From Alphaproteobacteria bacterium (lineage in GTDB: Bacteria > Pseudomonadota > Alphaproteobacteria > Rhodobacterales > Rhodobacteraceae): a stretch of 64,000 bases of DNA. A model generated the notes under the pieces. It saw only the letters and a program-made list of their open reading frames with translations, was not told the DNA's origin and did not search any database. A program made the translations under genes and the position numbers. Shown piece by piece: positions 10,361 through 43,080 of this stretch. The first letter of the stretch is position 1. Each line of letters starts with the position of its first letter. The stretch spans positions 1 to 64,000 of the forward strand of contig JAUIIJ010000022.1 of the NCBI GenBank assembly GCA_030431825.1, given 5' to 3'.

Positions 10361-10678
10361 ATGGTTCTCTATGGGCTAAAAACCTGCGATACCTGCCGCA
10401 AGGCGCTGAAATCATTGAAAGAGGCGCGCTTTGTCGATGTTCGCGGCGACGGGGTTCCGCCGGATGTTCTTGAGCGGGCAGAAGCGCAGTTCGGCGATGC
10501 GCTGCTGAACACGCGTTCGACAACCTGGCGTGGGCTCAGCGAGACGGAACGTGCACGCCCACGGCTTGATCTGCTTGTCGATCATCCGGCGCTGATGAAA
10601 CGGCCGCTGATCGAAAACGACGGCCAGTTGACGTTGGGTTGGAACGCAGACGTACAGGCGGCGCTTGGTGTGTCCTAG
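10361..10678 (+). CDS. ArsC/Spx-family small thioredoxin-fold protein
   Basis: The 105-residue protein has the N-terminal motif CDTC (Cys9, Cys12) in YGLKTCDTCRKALK and the family sequence KRPLI near residue 80. That places it in the ArsC/YffB/Spx superfamily. An AGAGGAG site precedes the ATG. True glutaredoxin-dependent arsenate reductases are longer and usually have one cysteine at this place, and no arsenic genes are near. A role in thiol redox is more likely than arsenate detoxification. Confidence 0.8.
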   Translation: MVLYGLKTCDTCRKALKSLKEARFVDVRGDGVPPDVLERAEAQFGDALLNTRSTTWRGLSETERARPRLDLLVDHPALMKRPLIENDGQLTLGWNADVQAALGVS

Positions 10679-10775
10679 GGCGGTGCCTATCCCCGGATCA
10701 CGCACAAGAGGGCCTGAATGCGCAACGCCGCCTGATCCTGGGAGCAGTCGCCGCATCCGATGGTACAATTCGCAT

Positions 10776-11324
10776 CTACGAGAGGCGGCCCATCAGCCGG
10801 TCGAGTGACAGCGGCCCTGCGCCCTTGACGACGATCACCAGCAGAACCATCACCCACAAGGTTCGCTGATCCATGATGAGGCTGCCTGACGCGGAGTCGA
10901 ACCACGCTCCAAGGGTGGTCTCATCGGTCGCGCCGTGGCCAACGATATCGGTGGCGGATTGAAGAACCACGAACCCGATCATGCCGATTGCGGCCAGGCG
11001 GCTGAGCAATCCCACGAGGATCAATGCGGGCAGGATGAATTCCGCCCAGGTGCCGAGCAGCGCCACCGCCCAATGAAAGAAACCGAGTTGCGAACTGTCA
11101 TAGCTCACCGCTTCCATCGCGCGGGGAAAGATCTGCACATAGGCACCGTCAGAGGGTGAAAATAGACCGAACACGCCGCTGCCGACCTTGGTAAGCGCCG
11201 ACTTCCAGAAATAGATCAGCAACACGGCGGCGAATACGAAACGCGCCAGGGTCGGCAGGATCAGGCCGGCATGGCGGTCAAGCCAGTCGAACACGGAATT
11301 GTGCAACGAGATCAGCGCGGTCAT
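10776..11324 (-). CDS. DoxX-family membrane protein of the bufferin operon (BufD/GigD-like)
   Basis: The 182-residue protein has about four membrane helices, including LPTLARFVFAAVLLIYFWKS and FHWAVALLGTWAEFILPALI, which is the DoxX pattern. It begins four bases after the stop of the bufC-like gene, so it is the last gene of the four-gene operon. In known gig/bufferin operons a DoxX protein often occupies this position and is thought to act in membrane redox chemistry linked to peptide maturation or copper handling. Its exact job is unproven. Confidence 0.85.
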   Translation of the reverse strand: MTALISLHNSVFDWLDRHAGLILPTLARFVFAAVLLIYFWKSALTKVGSGVFGLFSPSDGAYVQIFPRAMEAVSYDSSQLGFFHWAVALLGTWAEFILPALILVGLLSRLAAIGMIGFVVLQSATDIVGHGATDETTLGAWFDSASGSLIMDQRTLWVMVLLVIVVKGAGPLSLDRLMGRLS

Positions 11325-11328
11325 GGGC

Positions 11329-12087
11329 TCAGTCCTTGTCTTTCAGTGATGTGATTGCATTCCCGGTCAGCAGCAGGGTCAGCGGACCGGTCATGTCGAA
11401 GTCGGCGGCGTCCTGTTGCGCGAAGTCGAGGGCCTTGCCAATGCTATGGTCCTGCAAGAGAGCCTGAACCCAGGCGTGACCACCCGGCGGCAGCAAGGCC
11501 GGCAACGGATCAAATTCCGCGCGTGTTACGAGCACGTCCTGAGCGGTCGGTGTCGGTTTGGGCGCGCCGGCCCGAGTGTTGTAGCGCCAGATGTCGTAGA
11601 TCGGCCAGGGCGACCGCACGAGGCGGACGGACGGGGCGAATGTCAGCCGTGTCGCGAGCAAGTCTTCGGGGGACAGCGAAGCCAGCGACTCGGAGGCGAC
11701 CGGCGAGGCATCCGCAGCGTGATAGGCATGGCGCAGAGCAAGCTCGAGTCGCGCGATGTCGGGCAGATAACCCAGATGCGAAAGCTGCGGCAGGCTCGCG
11801 ATGAAATCCGGCAGGGCCTCGCCGTAAAACATCATCAGCGACGAACTCGGCGGATGCACCCGCACGAACATGCGCGCCATGCCATCCATGTTCTCCTTGC
11901 CGAGCAGCTTGGCGAGAACGGGAAAACCGGCGTGCAGTGCCTCGACCAGTGAAACGACCACGTTGTTGCGATAGACGTCAAAGCGCGCTCCTGCCGGGTG
12001 CCCGTCGCTGTCACGCAATCCGTCCGGCGCGGCGCGGTCGGGTGCCAGCAATGCCTGGCGGAACAGGGATTGCGACACGGTGGTCAC
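11329..12087 (-). CDS. bufC: Bufferin partner protein, DUF2063-type (BufC/GigC-like)
   Basis: The 252-residue protein has the DUF2063 N-terminal region: FRQALLAPD, FDVYRNNVVVSLVEALHAGFP, MARMFVRVHPPSS and IARLELALRHAYHA. In DUF692-family peptide pathways this partner recognises the precursor and presents it to the oxidase. It overlaps the bufB-like gene by four bases (ATG inside the end of bufB), which indicates translational coupling. Older annotations call this a putative DNA-binding domain; the neighbours argue against that role here. Confidence 0.9.
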   Translation of the reverse strand: MTTVSQSLFRQALLAPDRAAPDGLRDSDGHPAGARFDVYRNNVVVSLVEALHAGFPVLAKLLGKENMDGMARMFVRVHPPSSSLMMFYGEALPDFIASLPQLSHLGYLPDIARLELALRHAYHAADASPVASESLASLSPEDLLATRLTFAPSVRLVRSPWPIYDIWRYNTRAGAPKPTPTAQDVLVTRAEFDPLPALLPPGGHAWVQALLQDHSIGKALDFAQQDAADFDMTGPLTLLLTGNAITSLKDKD

Positions 12088-12941
12088 GCGGCGACCCGGC
12101 TGAGTGCGGCGGCGGCCCGTGCGGCTTCATCGCGCAGAACAGGCCAGTCCGGCACGTCATTGTCCCATTCGACCAGCACGGGAAGCGGTCCCGCGCACGT
12201 CAGCGTATGATCCAGCAGCGCCCAGACCGGATCGACAACGGGTTTTCCGTGGCTGTCGATCAACAGCGGCGCGCCGTATTCGTCGGTGTCTTCATCGTGG
12301 CCGCCGACATGGATTTCTCCTACCTCGGTGAGGGCGAAGGCATCGATATAGTCCTGCGGCGTGGTTTTCAGATTGGTGGCGGAAATGAAAACGTTGTTCA
12401 CGTCGAGAAGCAGACCGCAGCCCGTGCGCCGCGCCAGTTCGGCAAGGAACTCGGGTTCGGACCAGGTGCTTTCAGCAAAGGCAAGGTAGCTTGAGGGGTT
12501 CTCAAGCAGCATACGACGGCCAAGCGTGGTCTGAACCTGATCGATATGTGCGGCGACGCGGGCGAGCGTGGTATTGGTATAGGGCAGGGGGAGCAGGTCA
12601 TTCAGGAACTCGGCCCCATGCGTGGACCAGGCGAGGTGCTCGGAAAAGCTCGCCGGGTCCAACCAGCCAAGCAGGTGCTTCAGCCGTCCGAGATGATCTG
12701 TGTCCAGCGGTGCTTCGCCGCCAATCGAGAGGCCGACACCATGAACCGAGATTGGAAAACGTTCGGCCAGCGCGCGCAATTGTGCGAGGGGGCGGCCGCC
12801 GTCTCCCATGTAGTTCTCGGCGTGGATCTCGAGCCATTTGACCGGACCGGGCGCTTGGGTGATGTCCGTGAAATGTTGCGGCTTGTAGCCGACTCCGGCA
12901 CCGGCTGGCAGCGATCCGGCTTTGAATGAGGCATCCAGCAT
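12084..12941 (-). CDS. bufB: DUF692/MNIO multinuclear iron oxidase (BufB/GigB-like)
   Basis: The 285-residue TIM-barrel enzyme belongs to the multinuclear non-heme iron-dependent oxidases that modify cysteines in ribosomally made peptides. Metal-ligand stretches of the family are present in order: EIHAENYMG, HGVGLSIGG, SEHLAWSTHG, LENPSSYL, LLDVNNVFIS, EIHVGGHDED and VEWDND. It follows the small cysteine peptide gene and overlaps bufC. The predicted role is to convert core cysteines of BufA into copper-binding heterocycles in the cytoplasm before export. Confidence 0.93.
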   Translation of the reverse strand: MLDASFKAGSLPAGAGVGYKPQHFTDITQAPGPVKWLEIHAENYMGDGGRPLAQLRALAERFPISVHGVGLSIGGEAPLDTDHLGRLKHLLGWLDPASFSEHLAWSTHGAEFLNDLLPLPYTNTTLARVAAHIDQVQTTLGRRMLLENPSSYLAFAESTWSEPEFLAELARRTGCGLLLDVNNVFISATNLKTTPQDYIDAFALTEVGEIHVGGHDEDTDEYGAPLLIDSHGKPVVDPVWALLDHTLTCAGPLPVLVEWDNDVPDWPVLRDEAARAAAALSRVAA

Positions 12942-12963
12942 GGCGGTGCTTTCCCGTCGGCAG

Positions 12964-12985
12964 GACGGGCCGGTAACGGCCCGCC
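12964..12985 (-). promoter_or_regulatory. Hairpin in the bufA-bufB gap
   Basis: A nine-base stem with one G-U pair and a four-base loop lies in the 56-base gap between bufA and bufB. No T run follows in the direction of transcription. It may protect the bufA mRNA end or lower downstream expression, so that the peptide is made in excess over its enzymes. Confidence 0.4.
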
Positions 12986-12997
12986 CGGTTGTACGGC

Positions 12998-13300
12998 TTA
13001 TGCCGGCAGGTCGCGAGTCAACGCTTCGAGCGAGCCCTCGCGCGGGGTGCCGTCTGCCATTGCCGGCAGGTCCATGTCTTCGCAGGTGCCGGCGTCAACA
13101 AGCGTCCATGCGTTGCCCTGGTAATCGACAGTGGAGGTTCCGGCACATGTGGTGCCCGGACCGGCGGCACAGTCATTCTGACCGGCCAGCGCGACGCCAT
13201 AGCATTTTTCCTTGGCCTGCGCGCTGGCGGTGTTGGTGGTGGCGGCCAGCGCAGCAGCAACTGCGCCTGCAACGGCCAATGTCTTTGCGGTGTTGGACAT
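12998..13300 (-). CDS. bufA: Bufferin precursor peptide, DUF2282 family (BufA1/GigA-like)
   Basis: The 100-residue precursor has a signal peptide of about 28 residues ending TASA, followed by [18 protein letters not shown], which is typical of the family. The mature region has four cysteines at 33, 44, 52 and 73. In characterised bufferins the DUF692 enzyme turns core cysteines into thiooxazoles that chelate copper in the periplasm; that these cysteines are modified here is inference. GGGAG lies eight bases before the ATG. It is first in the operon and has its own upstream region of about 220 bases. Confidence 0.92.
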
Positions 13301-13394
13301 GGTTGGTCTCCCTCGAATTGTTCAACATCTTCGATCTGTGATGGAAAAAAGATATGTGGTCTGCCGGGCCGCGTGAACTCACGAGCCCGTGTCT

Positions 13395-13418
13395 CACGTC
13401 CCCGTCAGGCCGTGTTAC
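13395..13418 (-). promoter_or_regulatory. Possible ECF-sigma-type promoter of the bufferin operon
   Basis: On the coding strand GTAACA (13418-13413) is followed after 14 bases by CGTG (13398-13395). This resembles the GTAAC/CG-type promoters of ECF sigma factors known to drive gig operons, although the spacing is about two bases shorter than I recall for SigF promoters. It would give a leader of about 90 bases before bufA. Confidence 0.25.
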
Positions 13419-13469: not shown

Positions 13470-13499
13470 CAATCCGGCCCGCGATTCAGGGCCGGATTG
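13470..13499 (-). terminator. Inverted repeat after thrS
   Basis: A perfect 11-base inverted repeat, CAATCCGGCCC/GGGCCGGATTG with an eight-base loop, lies 20 bases past the thrS stop codon. The T content after the stem is low on both strands, so termination strength is uncertain. Confidence 0.55.
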
Positions 13500-37886: not shown

Positions 37887-38810
37887 TCAACTCAGCGAAC
37901 GTATCAGCAGACCCCCGGCGATCAGGGCGATCAACACCCCTGCAAAAATCTCGATTGCCGGCAGCAGCCGCGCGGCAAGCCGGCCATTCGCAAGCGATGC
38001 CATGAGCCCGCCGCGCATTCCGACCGCGCCCAGCCCGACCGCCACCGTCACCGCCCCGGTCCCGAGCGCCATGGCAAACGTCCCGGCAATACCGGCCAGG
38101 GGAATGCCCATTTGCCAGGTGATCAGCAGCACAAAGAGCGCACCGGTGCAGGGACGGACGGCGATTCCCGCGATCAGGATCAGCGCCTCGGTCAGCGTGC
38201 GCGCCCCGGCGACCTCCTGCGGTGTCGGGCCGTGGCGATGCCCGCAGGAGCCGCACGCGCCATCGTGATCAGACCCGTGGTCGTGATCGCAGTGGTCGCT
38301 ATCGGTATGATCGAGCGTGGATTTGCGCGCATGGCGCATCCCGCGCAGAATCAGCCAGCCCCCGATCAGCGCAATTGCCGCGTAAGAGACCGGGGCCATG
38401 ATGTCCTCGGTCAGGCCGACCATCTGTTCGCGCCCCAGCGAGAGCAGGAGAACGCCCGCATAAACAAGCACGATGGCCGTCACCGCCTGCCCGAGAGAGG
38501 CGGCCATGCCGATCGTCGCCAGCCGCAGCGCGGGCACCTTGCGGCCCAACCCGTAGCCGCCAATCAGAACCTTGCCATGTCCGGGGCCGACCGCGTGGAA
38601 GAATCCATACGCGAAACAGGCGACCATCAACACCAGCAACGACCCTTCGCCCCCCGCGCGCAAGGCGCGCAGCGTGCGGGCGATACTGTTCTGGAACTCG
38701 CGCTGTTGCTGCGCGGCCAGCGTGGCGATCTGATCAAAGCCGCCGCTGAACCAGACCCAAAGCGCATAAGCCAGCGCCAGCAGCACCGGAACGATCAGGA
38801 GCCTGGACAT
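37887..38810 (-). CDS. NicO/RcnA-family metal transporter (ZevB-like)
   Basis: The 307-residue membrane protein has about six helices and the family motif HAVGPGHGKVLIGGY with its histidine-rich metal path. Between helices lies a cytoplasmic or periplasmic His/Asp/Cys-rich loop (DHTDSDHCDHDHGSDHDGAC), followed by VRPCTGALFVLLIT. It overlaps the DUF1007 gene by 16 bases. Paired NicO and DUF1007 genes are known as ZevB/ZevA zinc importers in Haemophilus; nickel or cobalt cannot be excluded. Confidence 0.88.
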   Translation of the reverse strand: MSRLLIVPVLLALAYALWVWFSGGFDQIATLAAQQQREFQNSIARTLRALRAGGEGSLLVLMVACFAYGFFHAVGPGHGKVLIGGYGLGRKVPALRLATIGMAASLGQAVTAIVLVYAGVLLLSLGREQMVGLTEDIMAPVSYAAIALIGGWLILRGMRHARKSTLDHTDSDHCDHDHGSDHDGACGSCGHRHGPTPQEVAGARTLTEALILIAGIAVRPCTGALFVLLITWQMGIPLAGIAGTFAMALGTGAVTVAVGLGAVGMRGGLMASLANGRLAARLLPAIEIFAGVLIALIAGGLLIRSLS

Positions 38811-39445
38811 GATACGCGGATCTCGGTGGCGAACCGGGCGCCGATCAGGGGAATGTCGTTCTCTTCGAGGTCGGCATCGGCATTGATCGTCAACAGCATC
38901 TGCCGCATCTGTTCCAGTTCATTGTCGATATCCGGCGCGATCTTGTCGAGCGCGCAGACCGACGACGGCAGGATCCGCACCGGCAACGAAATCTCGTAGG
39001 CGGAATAATAGGTCTCGTCATAGGCAAGCAGCGACAGCACGCGGCCGGACAGGTCCGGGGTTCCGGTGACAGTGCGGACATGCGTTGTCGTGATGCGTCC
39101 GTCCTGCAATGTGGCGGTCGGATCCTGCGGGCCGGAGAGCTCGAGCGGGACCCCGTCGAGCGTGGCGACAAGATCGCCGTTGTAGCCCTCGACCCAGTTC
39201 ATATCAAAACCGGTCAGCCGTTCCCTGTCGCGGCTGGTCAGAACGCCATCGAAATCCTGATCGACCCGCAGGTCCTGGGTGATCAGCAGGGAATAGTACT
39301 CGTCATAGGTCCAGGTGATTTTCACCTGCGTCAGCGCACCGGTCTCATCCAGCGTGATTTCCAGTCCCGTATCGATAAAGATATGGGGATGCGCCAGCGC
39401 AGGAAGCGGAGCGGCACTCAGCAGGAAGGCCAGCAGACGTGTCAT
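38795..39445 (-). CDS. DUF1007 periplasmic protein (ZevA-like)
   Basis: The 216-residue protein has a short signal peptide ending ALA, with the mature protein starting HPHIFIDTGLEI. This N-terminal His-x-His is a ready metal ligand. The rest is beta-rich with WTYDEYYSLLI and a disulfide-capable cysteine pair. It is translationally coupled to the NicO gene. It probably delivers the metal ion to the permease from the periplasm. Confidence 0.85.
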   Translation of the reverse strand: MTRLLAFLLSAAPLPALAHPHIFIDTGLEITLDETGALTQVKITWTYDEYYSLLITQDLRVDQDFDGVLTSRDRERLTGFDMNWVEGYNGDLVATLDGVPLELSGPQDPTATLQDGRITTTHVRTVTGTPDLSGRVLSLLAYDETYYSAYEISLPVRILPSSVCALDKIAPDIDNELEQMRQMLLTINADADLEENDIPLIGARFATEIRVSCPGS

Positions 39446-41785: not shown

Positions 41786-42406
41786 ATGCCACACGATCAT
41801 TCAGACCCGGATCACCCGCATGCCCTGTTGCCGCCCGATCCGGCCCTCAGGGTCAAGGCGCTCGAGACCATCCTGACCCGCAAGGGGCTGGTGGATCCCG
41901 CCGCGCTGGACGAGATCATCGACACCTATCAGAACCGGATCGGCCCGAAGAACGGTGCGCAGGTCGTTGCGCGCGCCTGGAGCGATCCTGCATTTCTCGA
42001 CCGGCTGCGCGCGGATGCAACGGCGGTGATCTCGGACCTCGGGTTCTTCGGTCGTCAGGGCGAGCATATCGTGGTGGTCGAGAATACGCCTCAGCTGCAC
42101 AACATGGTGGTTTGCACCCTGTGCAGTTGTTACCCGTGGCCGCTGCTCGGTATTCCGCCGGGCTGGTACAAGTCGGATGCCTATCGTGCGCGTGCGGTTC
42201 GCGAGCCGCGCAAGGTGCTGGCGGAATTCGGCATCATCCTGCCCGAAACGATGGCGGTGCGGGTCTGGGATTCGACGGCTGAAATCAGGTATCTCGTGAT
42301 CCCGATGCGCCCGGAGGGCACGGAAGGTCTTTCAGAAACGGAACTGGCCGCATTGGTCACGCGTGACAGTATGATCGGCACGGGGCTGGCGAGGACACCG
42401 GAATGA
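41786..42406 (+). CDS. nthA: Nitrile hydratase alpha subunit, cobalt type
   Basis: The 206-residue subunit holds the metal claw CTLCSC at residues 110-115. The threonine after the first cysteine marks cobalt-type enzymes (iron types have Ser). Other family stretches are [20 protein letters not shown] and [20 protein letters not shown]. It hydrates nitriles to amides as a heterodimer with NthB. The next gene starts inside its stop region (four-base overlap). No clear ribosome site is seen at 41786. Confidence 0.95.
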
Positions 42407-43080
42407 GCCGGCCACATGATATGGGGGGACGCTTTGGTGACGGTGCCGTGGTGCCGGAACCGCAGGGCATTCCGACACTCGATGAAGACTGGCAGGCGCG
42501 GGCCCTGGCGCTGACGCTGGCCGCCGGTTCACTCGGGCAATGGAACCTCGACATCTCGCGTCATAGCCGCGAGCGCCTGTCGCCAAAGGACTATGCCCGT
42601 TTTTCCTATTTCGAGAAATGGATTGCCGCGCTCGCGGACCTGCTGGTCGAAAAGGATGTGCTGCGTCGCGAGGAGTTGCAGGGCGGCGGGGAAGGCGGGC
42701 CGCACGCTCTTGCGGGGCGGGCGCTGCCGGCATCAAGGGTCGCCTCTGTCCTGGCGGCGGGTGGACCTGCCGACCGGCCGATCGCGACACCGCCCCGGTT
42801 TGAAAGGGGACAGGCCGTCGTGACCGCGCGCCCCGCGGGCAACCGGCTTGTCGATGGCGGGCACACGCGCCTGCCGTCCTATGCCTCGGGTGCGCAGGGT
42901 TATATTCTGAAGCATCATGGCGCCCACGTGTTGCCCGACAGCAATGCCCACGGGCTCGGAGAGTGTCCGCAGCACCTTTACACCGTGGTGTTTTCGGCGA
43001 CGCAGTTTTGGAGCCACCCGGAGCACCCCGATGACGAGGTGACGCTCGATCTCTGGGAAAGTTACCTGGAGCCCGCATGA
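42403..43080 (+). CDS. nthB: Nitrile hydratase beta subunit
   Basis: The 225-residue subunit begins [20 protein letters not shown], as beta subunits do. It has [19 protein letters not shown] and the C-terminal SH3-like part HYP-type stretch [24 protein letters not shown] with [19 protein letters not shown] at the end. It overlaps both neighbours by four bases, so alpha, beta and activator are translated together. Confidence 0.95.

Follow-up and report, generated by a model that had tools for sequence, protein, structure and literature searches.

A probable Buf1-type bufferin operon and its conserved upstream element in a Roseobacter-group bacterium

Gene content and family assignments

The DNA analysed here, referred to as the window, is a stretch of 64,000 nucleotides (positions 1 to 64,000 of contig JAUIIJ010000022.1, GenBank assembly GCA_030431825.1) from an alphaproteobacterium of the family Rhodobacteraceae. 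It contains four genes, all on the minus strand and transcribed in the order bufA, bufB, bufC and a doxX-like gene, that very probably make up an ordinary, intact bufferin operon of the Buf1 (DUF2282) type in a Roseobacter-group bacterium, with a copper-sequestering modified peptide as its product. Pfam and NCBIfam profile matches were judged against each family's own cut-off. The precursor gene bufA (12998..13300, 100 aa) matches the Pfam family DUF2282 at 88.9 bits (cut-off 22.4). The gene for the MNIO maturase, bufB (12084..12941, 285 aa), matches PF05114 (MbnB_TglH_ChrH) at 340.6 bits (cut-off 25) and the NCBIfam profile NF050167 MNIO_BufB at 368.5 bits, above its cut-off of 310. The partner protein gene bufC (11329..12087, 252 aa) begins with GTG and matches DUF2063 (PF09836) at 82.7 bits (cut-off 27.2). 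Finally, the doxX-like gene (10776..11324) encodes a membrane protein of 182 aa.

The original prediction had placed a bufA, bufB, bufC and DoxX-like gene at these coordinates, with a four-base overlap between bufB and bufC and four cysteines in the precursor, and had assigned the set as a bufferin (gig-like) operon. The reading frames and family matches bear out the four genes, positions 12084-12087 are common to the bufB and bufC frames, and Cys33, Cys44, Cys52 and Cys73 are all present in the bufA translation. The assignment itself is supported by the family matches of the precursor, enzyme and partner, by the modelled BufC fold and by the synteny described below, with the DoxX match under threshold.

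Several results weigh against this assignment. The doxX-like product reaches only 20.4 bits with Pfam DoxX (cut-off 23.6) and is far under the cut-off of NCBIfam HvfX (24.5 against 80), as is BufC with HvfC (39.9 against 142). The structure model of BufA is poor, with a predicted local distance difference test score (pLDDT) of 54, and affords no view of a disulphide. The sole NCBIfam match of BufA, to NF050166 BufA2, is 19.6 bits with a cut-off of 60; this was counted on the same side, yet it is expected if BufA belongs to Buf1. In favour of the DoxX call, however, 25 of 25 aligned orthologues, the window copy included, match DoxX at E ≤ 0.01, the best at 4.6e-8. A DoxX gene is a frequent but not a universal part of Buf1 clusters.

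Two related types do not fit the window operon. Buf2 and the oxazolin/EGKCG peptides (HvfA, FonA) share with the window the combination of an MNIO enzyme, a DUF2063 partner and a Cys-rich precursor (PMC12452194, PMC13097082). Their precursors have 6 or 12 cysteines, or EGKCG repeats (PMC12452194), whereas BufA has four cysteines and no EGKCG. This cysteine number together with the BufA2 score speaks against Buf2, and the lack of EGKCG in the bufA translation against the oxazolin/EGKCG type.

Conservation of the operon among relatives

DUF2282 was found in 68 of the 121 genomes of the relatives search and in 211 of the 295 genomes of the family, the window's own genome being counted in both. 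That genome, which is 85.7% complete, holds one MNIO match and one DUF2282 match, both at the bufferin locus. A BufA scan returned at least 589 stretches, 545 of them from relatives, and the best 80 were used as the locus set; their record titles name mostly Roseobacter-group genera. Among the matches listed, the full-length BufA of highest identity (89%) is that of Seohaeicola saemankumensis. Besides the window, the four alignments drew on 23, 24, 19 and 17 loci.

Each of the four genes could be delimited in 73 of the 80 loci. The seven incomplete cases comprise three contig ends (L043, L098, L110) and four failures of the start-codon rule (L080, L081, L093, L105), and in these four tblastn recovers the gene. 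The four-base bufB/bufC overlap recurs in 65 of the 76 loci with both genes delimited. The window gene upstream of bufA is of the threonyl-tRNA-synthetase type (thrS) by Pfam, and 76 of the 80 loci have a same-strand thrS match ahead of bufA, ending no more than 500 bases away in 72. Moreover, arsC on the opposite strand and a csp match occur together in 64 of the 80. With the four genes and the nearby thrS recurring at these frequencies, chance is excluded as the origin of the gene set.

In the window, an ArsC-family gene on the plus strand (10361-10678) converges on the doxX-like gene (region 10361-10776). A gene of about 122 aa lies between doxX and arsC in all five relatives printed (for example L071:7614-7982) and is missing from the window; the L071 copy has no Pfam match. 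Two Shimia genomes carry a tandem second bufA before bufB (L105, from 5425 onward; L106, from 5307 onward), and two bufA copies are also found at the relative locus L018.

The BufA precursor

BufA proteins and upstream regions were compared in sets of 76, namely the window and 75 of the 80 loci, with L079, L087, L098, L107 and L110 excluded, their matches not starting at the start codon. The cysteines of BufA stand at positions 33, 44, 52 and 73, giving a spacing of 11/8/21 that is identical in all 76 proteins. It had been predicted that this spacing and the short tail after Cys73 define the particular peptide. The spacing does not: it is lineage-wide, and thus marks the family and not a single peptide. 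The tail is common to close relatives.

Mean conservation of BufA is 94% over residues 30-73, 73% over 74-86 and 83% over 87-100, and parts of the signal peptide stand at 63-81%. The protein ends in RDLPA, and in 75 of the 76 sequences the final 9 residues include RD[LIVM]. Residues 87-100, RxGSLxxLxRDLPA, are near-invariant across these 76 close BufA proteins. Among more distant loci, the RDLP-type end is absent from all six class-level loci printed (L003, L007, L008, L011, L014, L019) and from three of the 21 same-family loci printed (L004, L005, L010), and this same-family absence led us to reject it as characteristic of the family at large. Most distant BufA loci without this end still keep the GSL motif. 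The RDLPA-type end may be a candidate recognition element for BufBC.

A likely Sec signal peptide was read by eye over approximately residues 1-28 (13217..13300, minus strand), with Lys6, a hydrophobic stretch and ASA-Q. Preliminary results reported for bufferins make the signal peptide part of BufB-BufC recognition (PMC12452194). BufA had no match in the PDB by sequence.

The BufB enzyme and the BufC partner

BufB aligns with the solved MNIO proteins 3bww, 8hci and 7dz9 of the PDB. Its motifs SEHLAW, LLENP, LLLDVNN, EIHxGGH, LIDSH and EWDxDVPxW show little or no variation across the 20 aligned sequences, the window included. In the related enzyme FonB, Asp249 is the proposed catalytic base, and the position of FonB Arg16 loses conservation in DUF2282-type enzymes (PMC13097082). 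Placed through the 3bww alignment, FonB itself not being aligned, the BufB position matching Asp249 carries an Asp (260 in the full protein) and that matching Arg16 carries a Pro (21 in the full protein).

For BufC, comparison with the PDB by single sequence or by profile gave no match. An AlphaFold2 model built from 24 sequences has a pLDDT of 93.4, and Foldseek matched it to 8hci_A (E 8.5e-7), 8hi7_A and 3dee (E 5e-4). The entries 8hci and 8hi7 are the TglHI complex, in which the matched chains are presumably TglI; 3dee is the DUF2063 reference structure. Chains 7fc0_C and 7dz9_C, presumably MbnC, were matched at E 0.43 and 0.83 only. The model thus places BufC with proteins of the DUF2063 plus RRE-type (recognition-element) fold, as predicted for a PME-type 1 partner.

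A conserved 41-bp element upstream of bufA

A conserved element of 41 bp precedes bufA on the minus strand (13377..13417); its pattern is TnAC-N6-TGACG-N4-CGTGAnnCACnnnCTCGTGAnT, and on sequence grounds it is a probable activator-binding site. GTGA-N11-GTGA occurs in 52 of the 76 upstream regions, the next most frequent spacing in 5. Alignment on this arrangement puts TnAC at -20, TGACG at -10, GTGAnnCAC at 0 and CGTGAnT at +14; two ACG-N4-CGTGA boxes, 15 bp apart, fall inside the 41 bp. When the element was scored with leave-one-out matrices, 70 of the 76 regions stood above the highest score of both controls (1,520 shuffled and 740 neighbouring stretches), though the rows are related sequences and the counts are not independent.

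A 31-base core pattern, allowing one mismatch, matched 11 of 61 genomes. In the 295 genomes of the family it matched 57, once in each, and the reversed control gave none. For 43 of these matches, a same-strand DUF2282 match follows at a distance of 155-196 bases, and all 13 further matches whose loci were fetched are also upstream of bufA. The remaining one, in genome G067, lies between bufA and bufB (L124:1220-1250), where a 4-mismatch copy stands upstream of bufA. All 57 matches are therefore at the bufferin operon, 56 of them just upstream of bufA.

A longer pattern, with up to three mismatches, gave one match each in the window's own genome and four congeners, at bufA. The element pattern at three mismatches or fewer had no target besides bufA in the own genome; two 3-mismatch matches in the window fall inside other genes. 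The element looks specific to the bufferin operon.

Promoter and regulation

The 41-bp element abuts a weak sigma-70-like putative promoter on the minus strand (13349..13377), formed by the hexamers TTCACG (13372-13377) and TATCTT (13349-13354) with a 17-base spacer. The call comes from a count of TAnnnT over offsets +25 to +64, a pattern chosen after viewing the alignment: in the 52 aligned regions it stands at +43 in 30 and at +44 in 8, with at most one occurrence at each of the 38 other offsets. Transcription would start at this weak promoter and is probably activated by a regulator acting through the conserved element.

Other results speak against such an arrangement. By score, six of the 76 upstream regions are without the element (L036, L067, L070, L088, L099, L101), and the strict 31-base pattern is missing from 154 of the 211 family genomes that carry DUF2282. 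A consensus scan calls no promoter between thrS and bufA, the putative hexamers included, nor any minus-strand terminator, and for this reason bufA might also be transcribed by read-through from thrS. Within the same interval, the scan reads a strong inverted repeat of 11 pairs (13470-13499) as a terminator of the plus strand, although the neighbouring genes are both on the minus strand. A leader RNA between thrS and bufA was rejected; the two Rfam matches are both far below gathering.

Regulation of the Caulobacter kind was also considered. The operon CC3254-CC3257 has the same four families in the same order as the window (precursor, MNIO, DUF2063, DoxX) and is numbered beside sigF (CC3253) and a negative regulator (CC3252); the homologous Caulobacter operons are sigma-F-dependent, with the promoter GTAACC-N16-CGAA (PMC3511200). 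The window differs from Caulobacter in having another conserved upstream element and in that an NrsF gene was not found in its own genome, an absence that is uncertain in an assembly of this completeness. For spacers of 13-19 bases, no single length places GTAAC-N-CGAA in more than 3 of the 76 upstream regions, and of the GTAAC/CG combinations tried the commonest reaches 7. GTAACA is present in 63 of the 76, but chiefly 200-300 bases ahead of bufA, a stretch in which thrS ends at most of the printed loci. A sigma-F-type promoter was rejected on this evidence. Sigma-F-type control should not be assumed for an upstream region of this different, conserved type.

No conserved neighbouring regulator was found among the open reading frames of 16 of the 80 loci, for part of which only the doxX-arsC interval was covered. 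Upstream genes for a WYL-domain regulator (L038) and for a GGDEF/EAL protein (L107) were rejected, since neither recurred upstream at the other loci covered. The 122-aa doxX-arsC gene was likewise rejected as a conserved regulator, as it has no Pfam match and is absent from the window.

We tentatively propose that the Roseobacter-group bufferin operon is under a dedicated metal-responsive activator with one site per genome, the 41-bp element, in place of the sigma-F/NrsF control of Caulobacter. The element could instead be a composite of degenerate sites for a global regulator, its uniqueness then being due to the arrangement rather than to a dedicated regulator, and we find the case for and against this evenly balanced. 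A long pattern is unique even when its half-sites are common, so the uniqueness of the pattern leaves a dedicated regulator unproven. The 19-base half pattern, at up to two mismatches, indeed gives 19-31 matches per genome against 6-18 for the reversed control. The exact half pattern, in contrast, is matched only at bufA in the own genome and four congeners, which argues against a global regulator.

It is unlikely that the conserved element is instead the promoter of an alternative sigma factor of the extracytoplasmic function (ECF) type and not an activator site. TGACG and CGTGA do, to our eye, vaguely resemble ECF hexamers. Four conserved blocks over 41 bp nevertheless exceed the need of two hexamers, a TAnnnT hexamer follows the element at a nearly fixed offset, and the rarity of GTAAC-N-CGAA and the failure to find NrsF, noted above, point the same way. 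Elsewhere, Buf1 clusters are under sigma-F or near ECF genes (PMC12452194, PMC3511200, PMC13192273), which favours such a promoter. As for the dedicated activator, a literature search judged by titles and abstract openings, with subscription papers mostly outside its scope, found no study of a Roseobacter bufferin promoter.

Proposed chemistry and role of the peptide

From what is published on Buf1, the product is best inferred to be an exported peptide that carries modifications and buffers copper. Published work places the Buf1 modification on the central cysteines and a disulphide between the outer two, with thiooxazoles as the means by which bufferins sequester periplasmic copper (PMC12452194); 5-thiooxazoles have been assigned as the modification (PMC13097082). 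By analogy, the multi-iron oxidase BufB, acting with BufC, would oxidise Cys44 and Cys52 to thiooxazoles in the cytoplasm. The modified BufA would then be exported by Sec, after which Cys33 and Cys73 would pair as a disulphide and, in the periplasm, the mature bufferin would sequester excess copper. The DoxX-like membrane protein would be an accessory.

We consider it very unlikely that the modified peptide serves mainly another metal or redox/thiol stress (gold, chromate, cadmium) and binds copper incidentally, a role suggested by the homologous Caulobacter operons being among the sigma-F-dependent genes measured under dichromate stress (PMC3511200), by the response of the Legionella gig promoter to gold as well (PMC5413113) and by MerC-bufferin fusions that hint at other metals (PMC12452194).

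Known systems and significance

Elsewhere in the window, at a distance of about 25 kb from the operon, two overlapping minus-strand genes (37887-39445), one of the NicO family (nickel transport) and one of DUF1007, are possibly a metal-transport pair. The alpha and beta chain genes of a nitrile hydratase lie at 41786-43080 on the plus strand, with frames that overlap by 4 bases.

The gig genes have been described as bufferin-encoding (PMC13192273). Those of Legionella pneumophila include DoxX and DUF2063 genes, as in the window, and have a copper- and gold-responsive promoter (PMC5413113). The window operon differs from the gig genes of Cupriavidus metallidurans and L. pneumophila in adjoining threonyl-tRNA synthetase and ArsC-family genes.

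Within the Roseobacter group, Phaeobacter inhibens has a DUF692 cluster for a ribosomally synthesized and post-translationally modified peptide, with one gene-cluster family in 18 of 18 strains (PMC11595833). In the accessible part of that source the cluster is not named a bufferin. Its presence hints that operons of this kind were already on record for the Roseobacter group.

The Buf1 cluster type is already described in print, and the operon is one more case of a large known family. The part of this otherwise ordinary locus that is worth following is the upstream element. Roseobacters are abundant marine bacteria, and it is mainly through their abundance in the sea that the bufferin operon matters.

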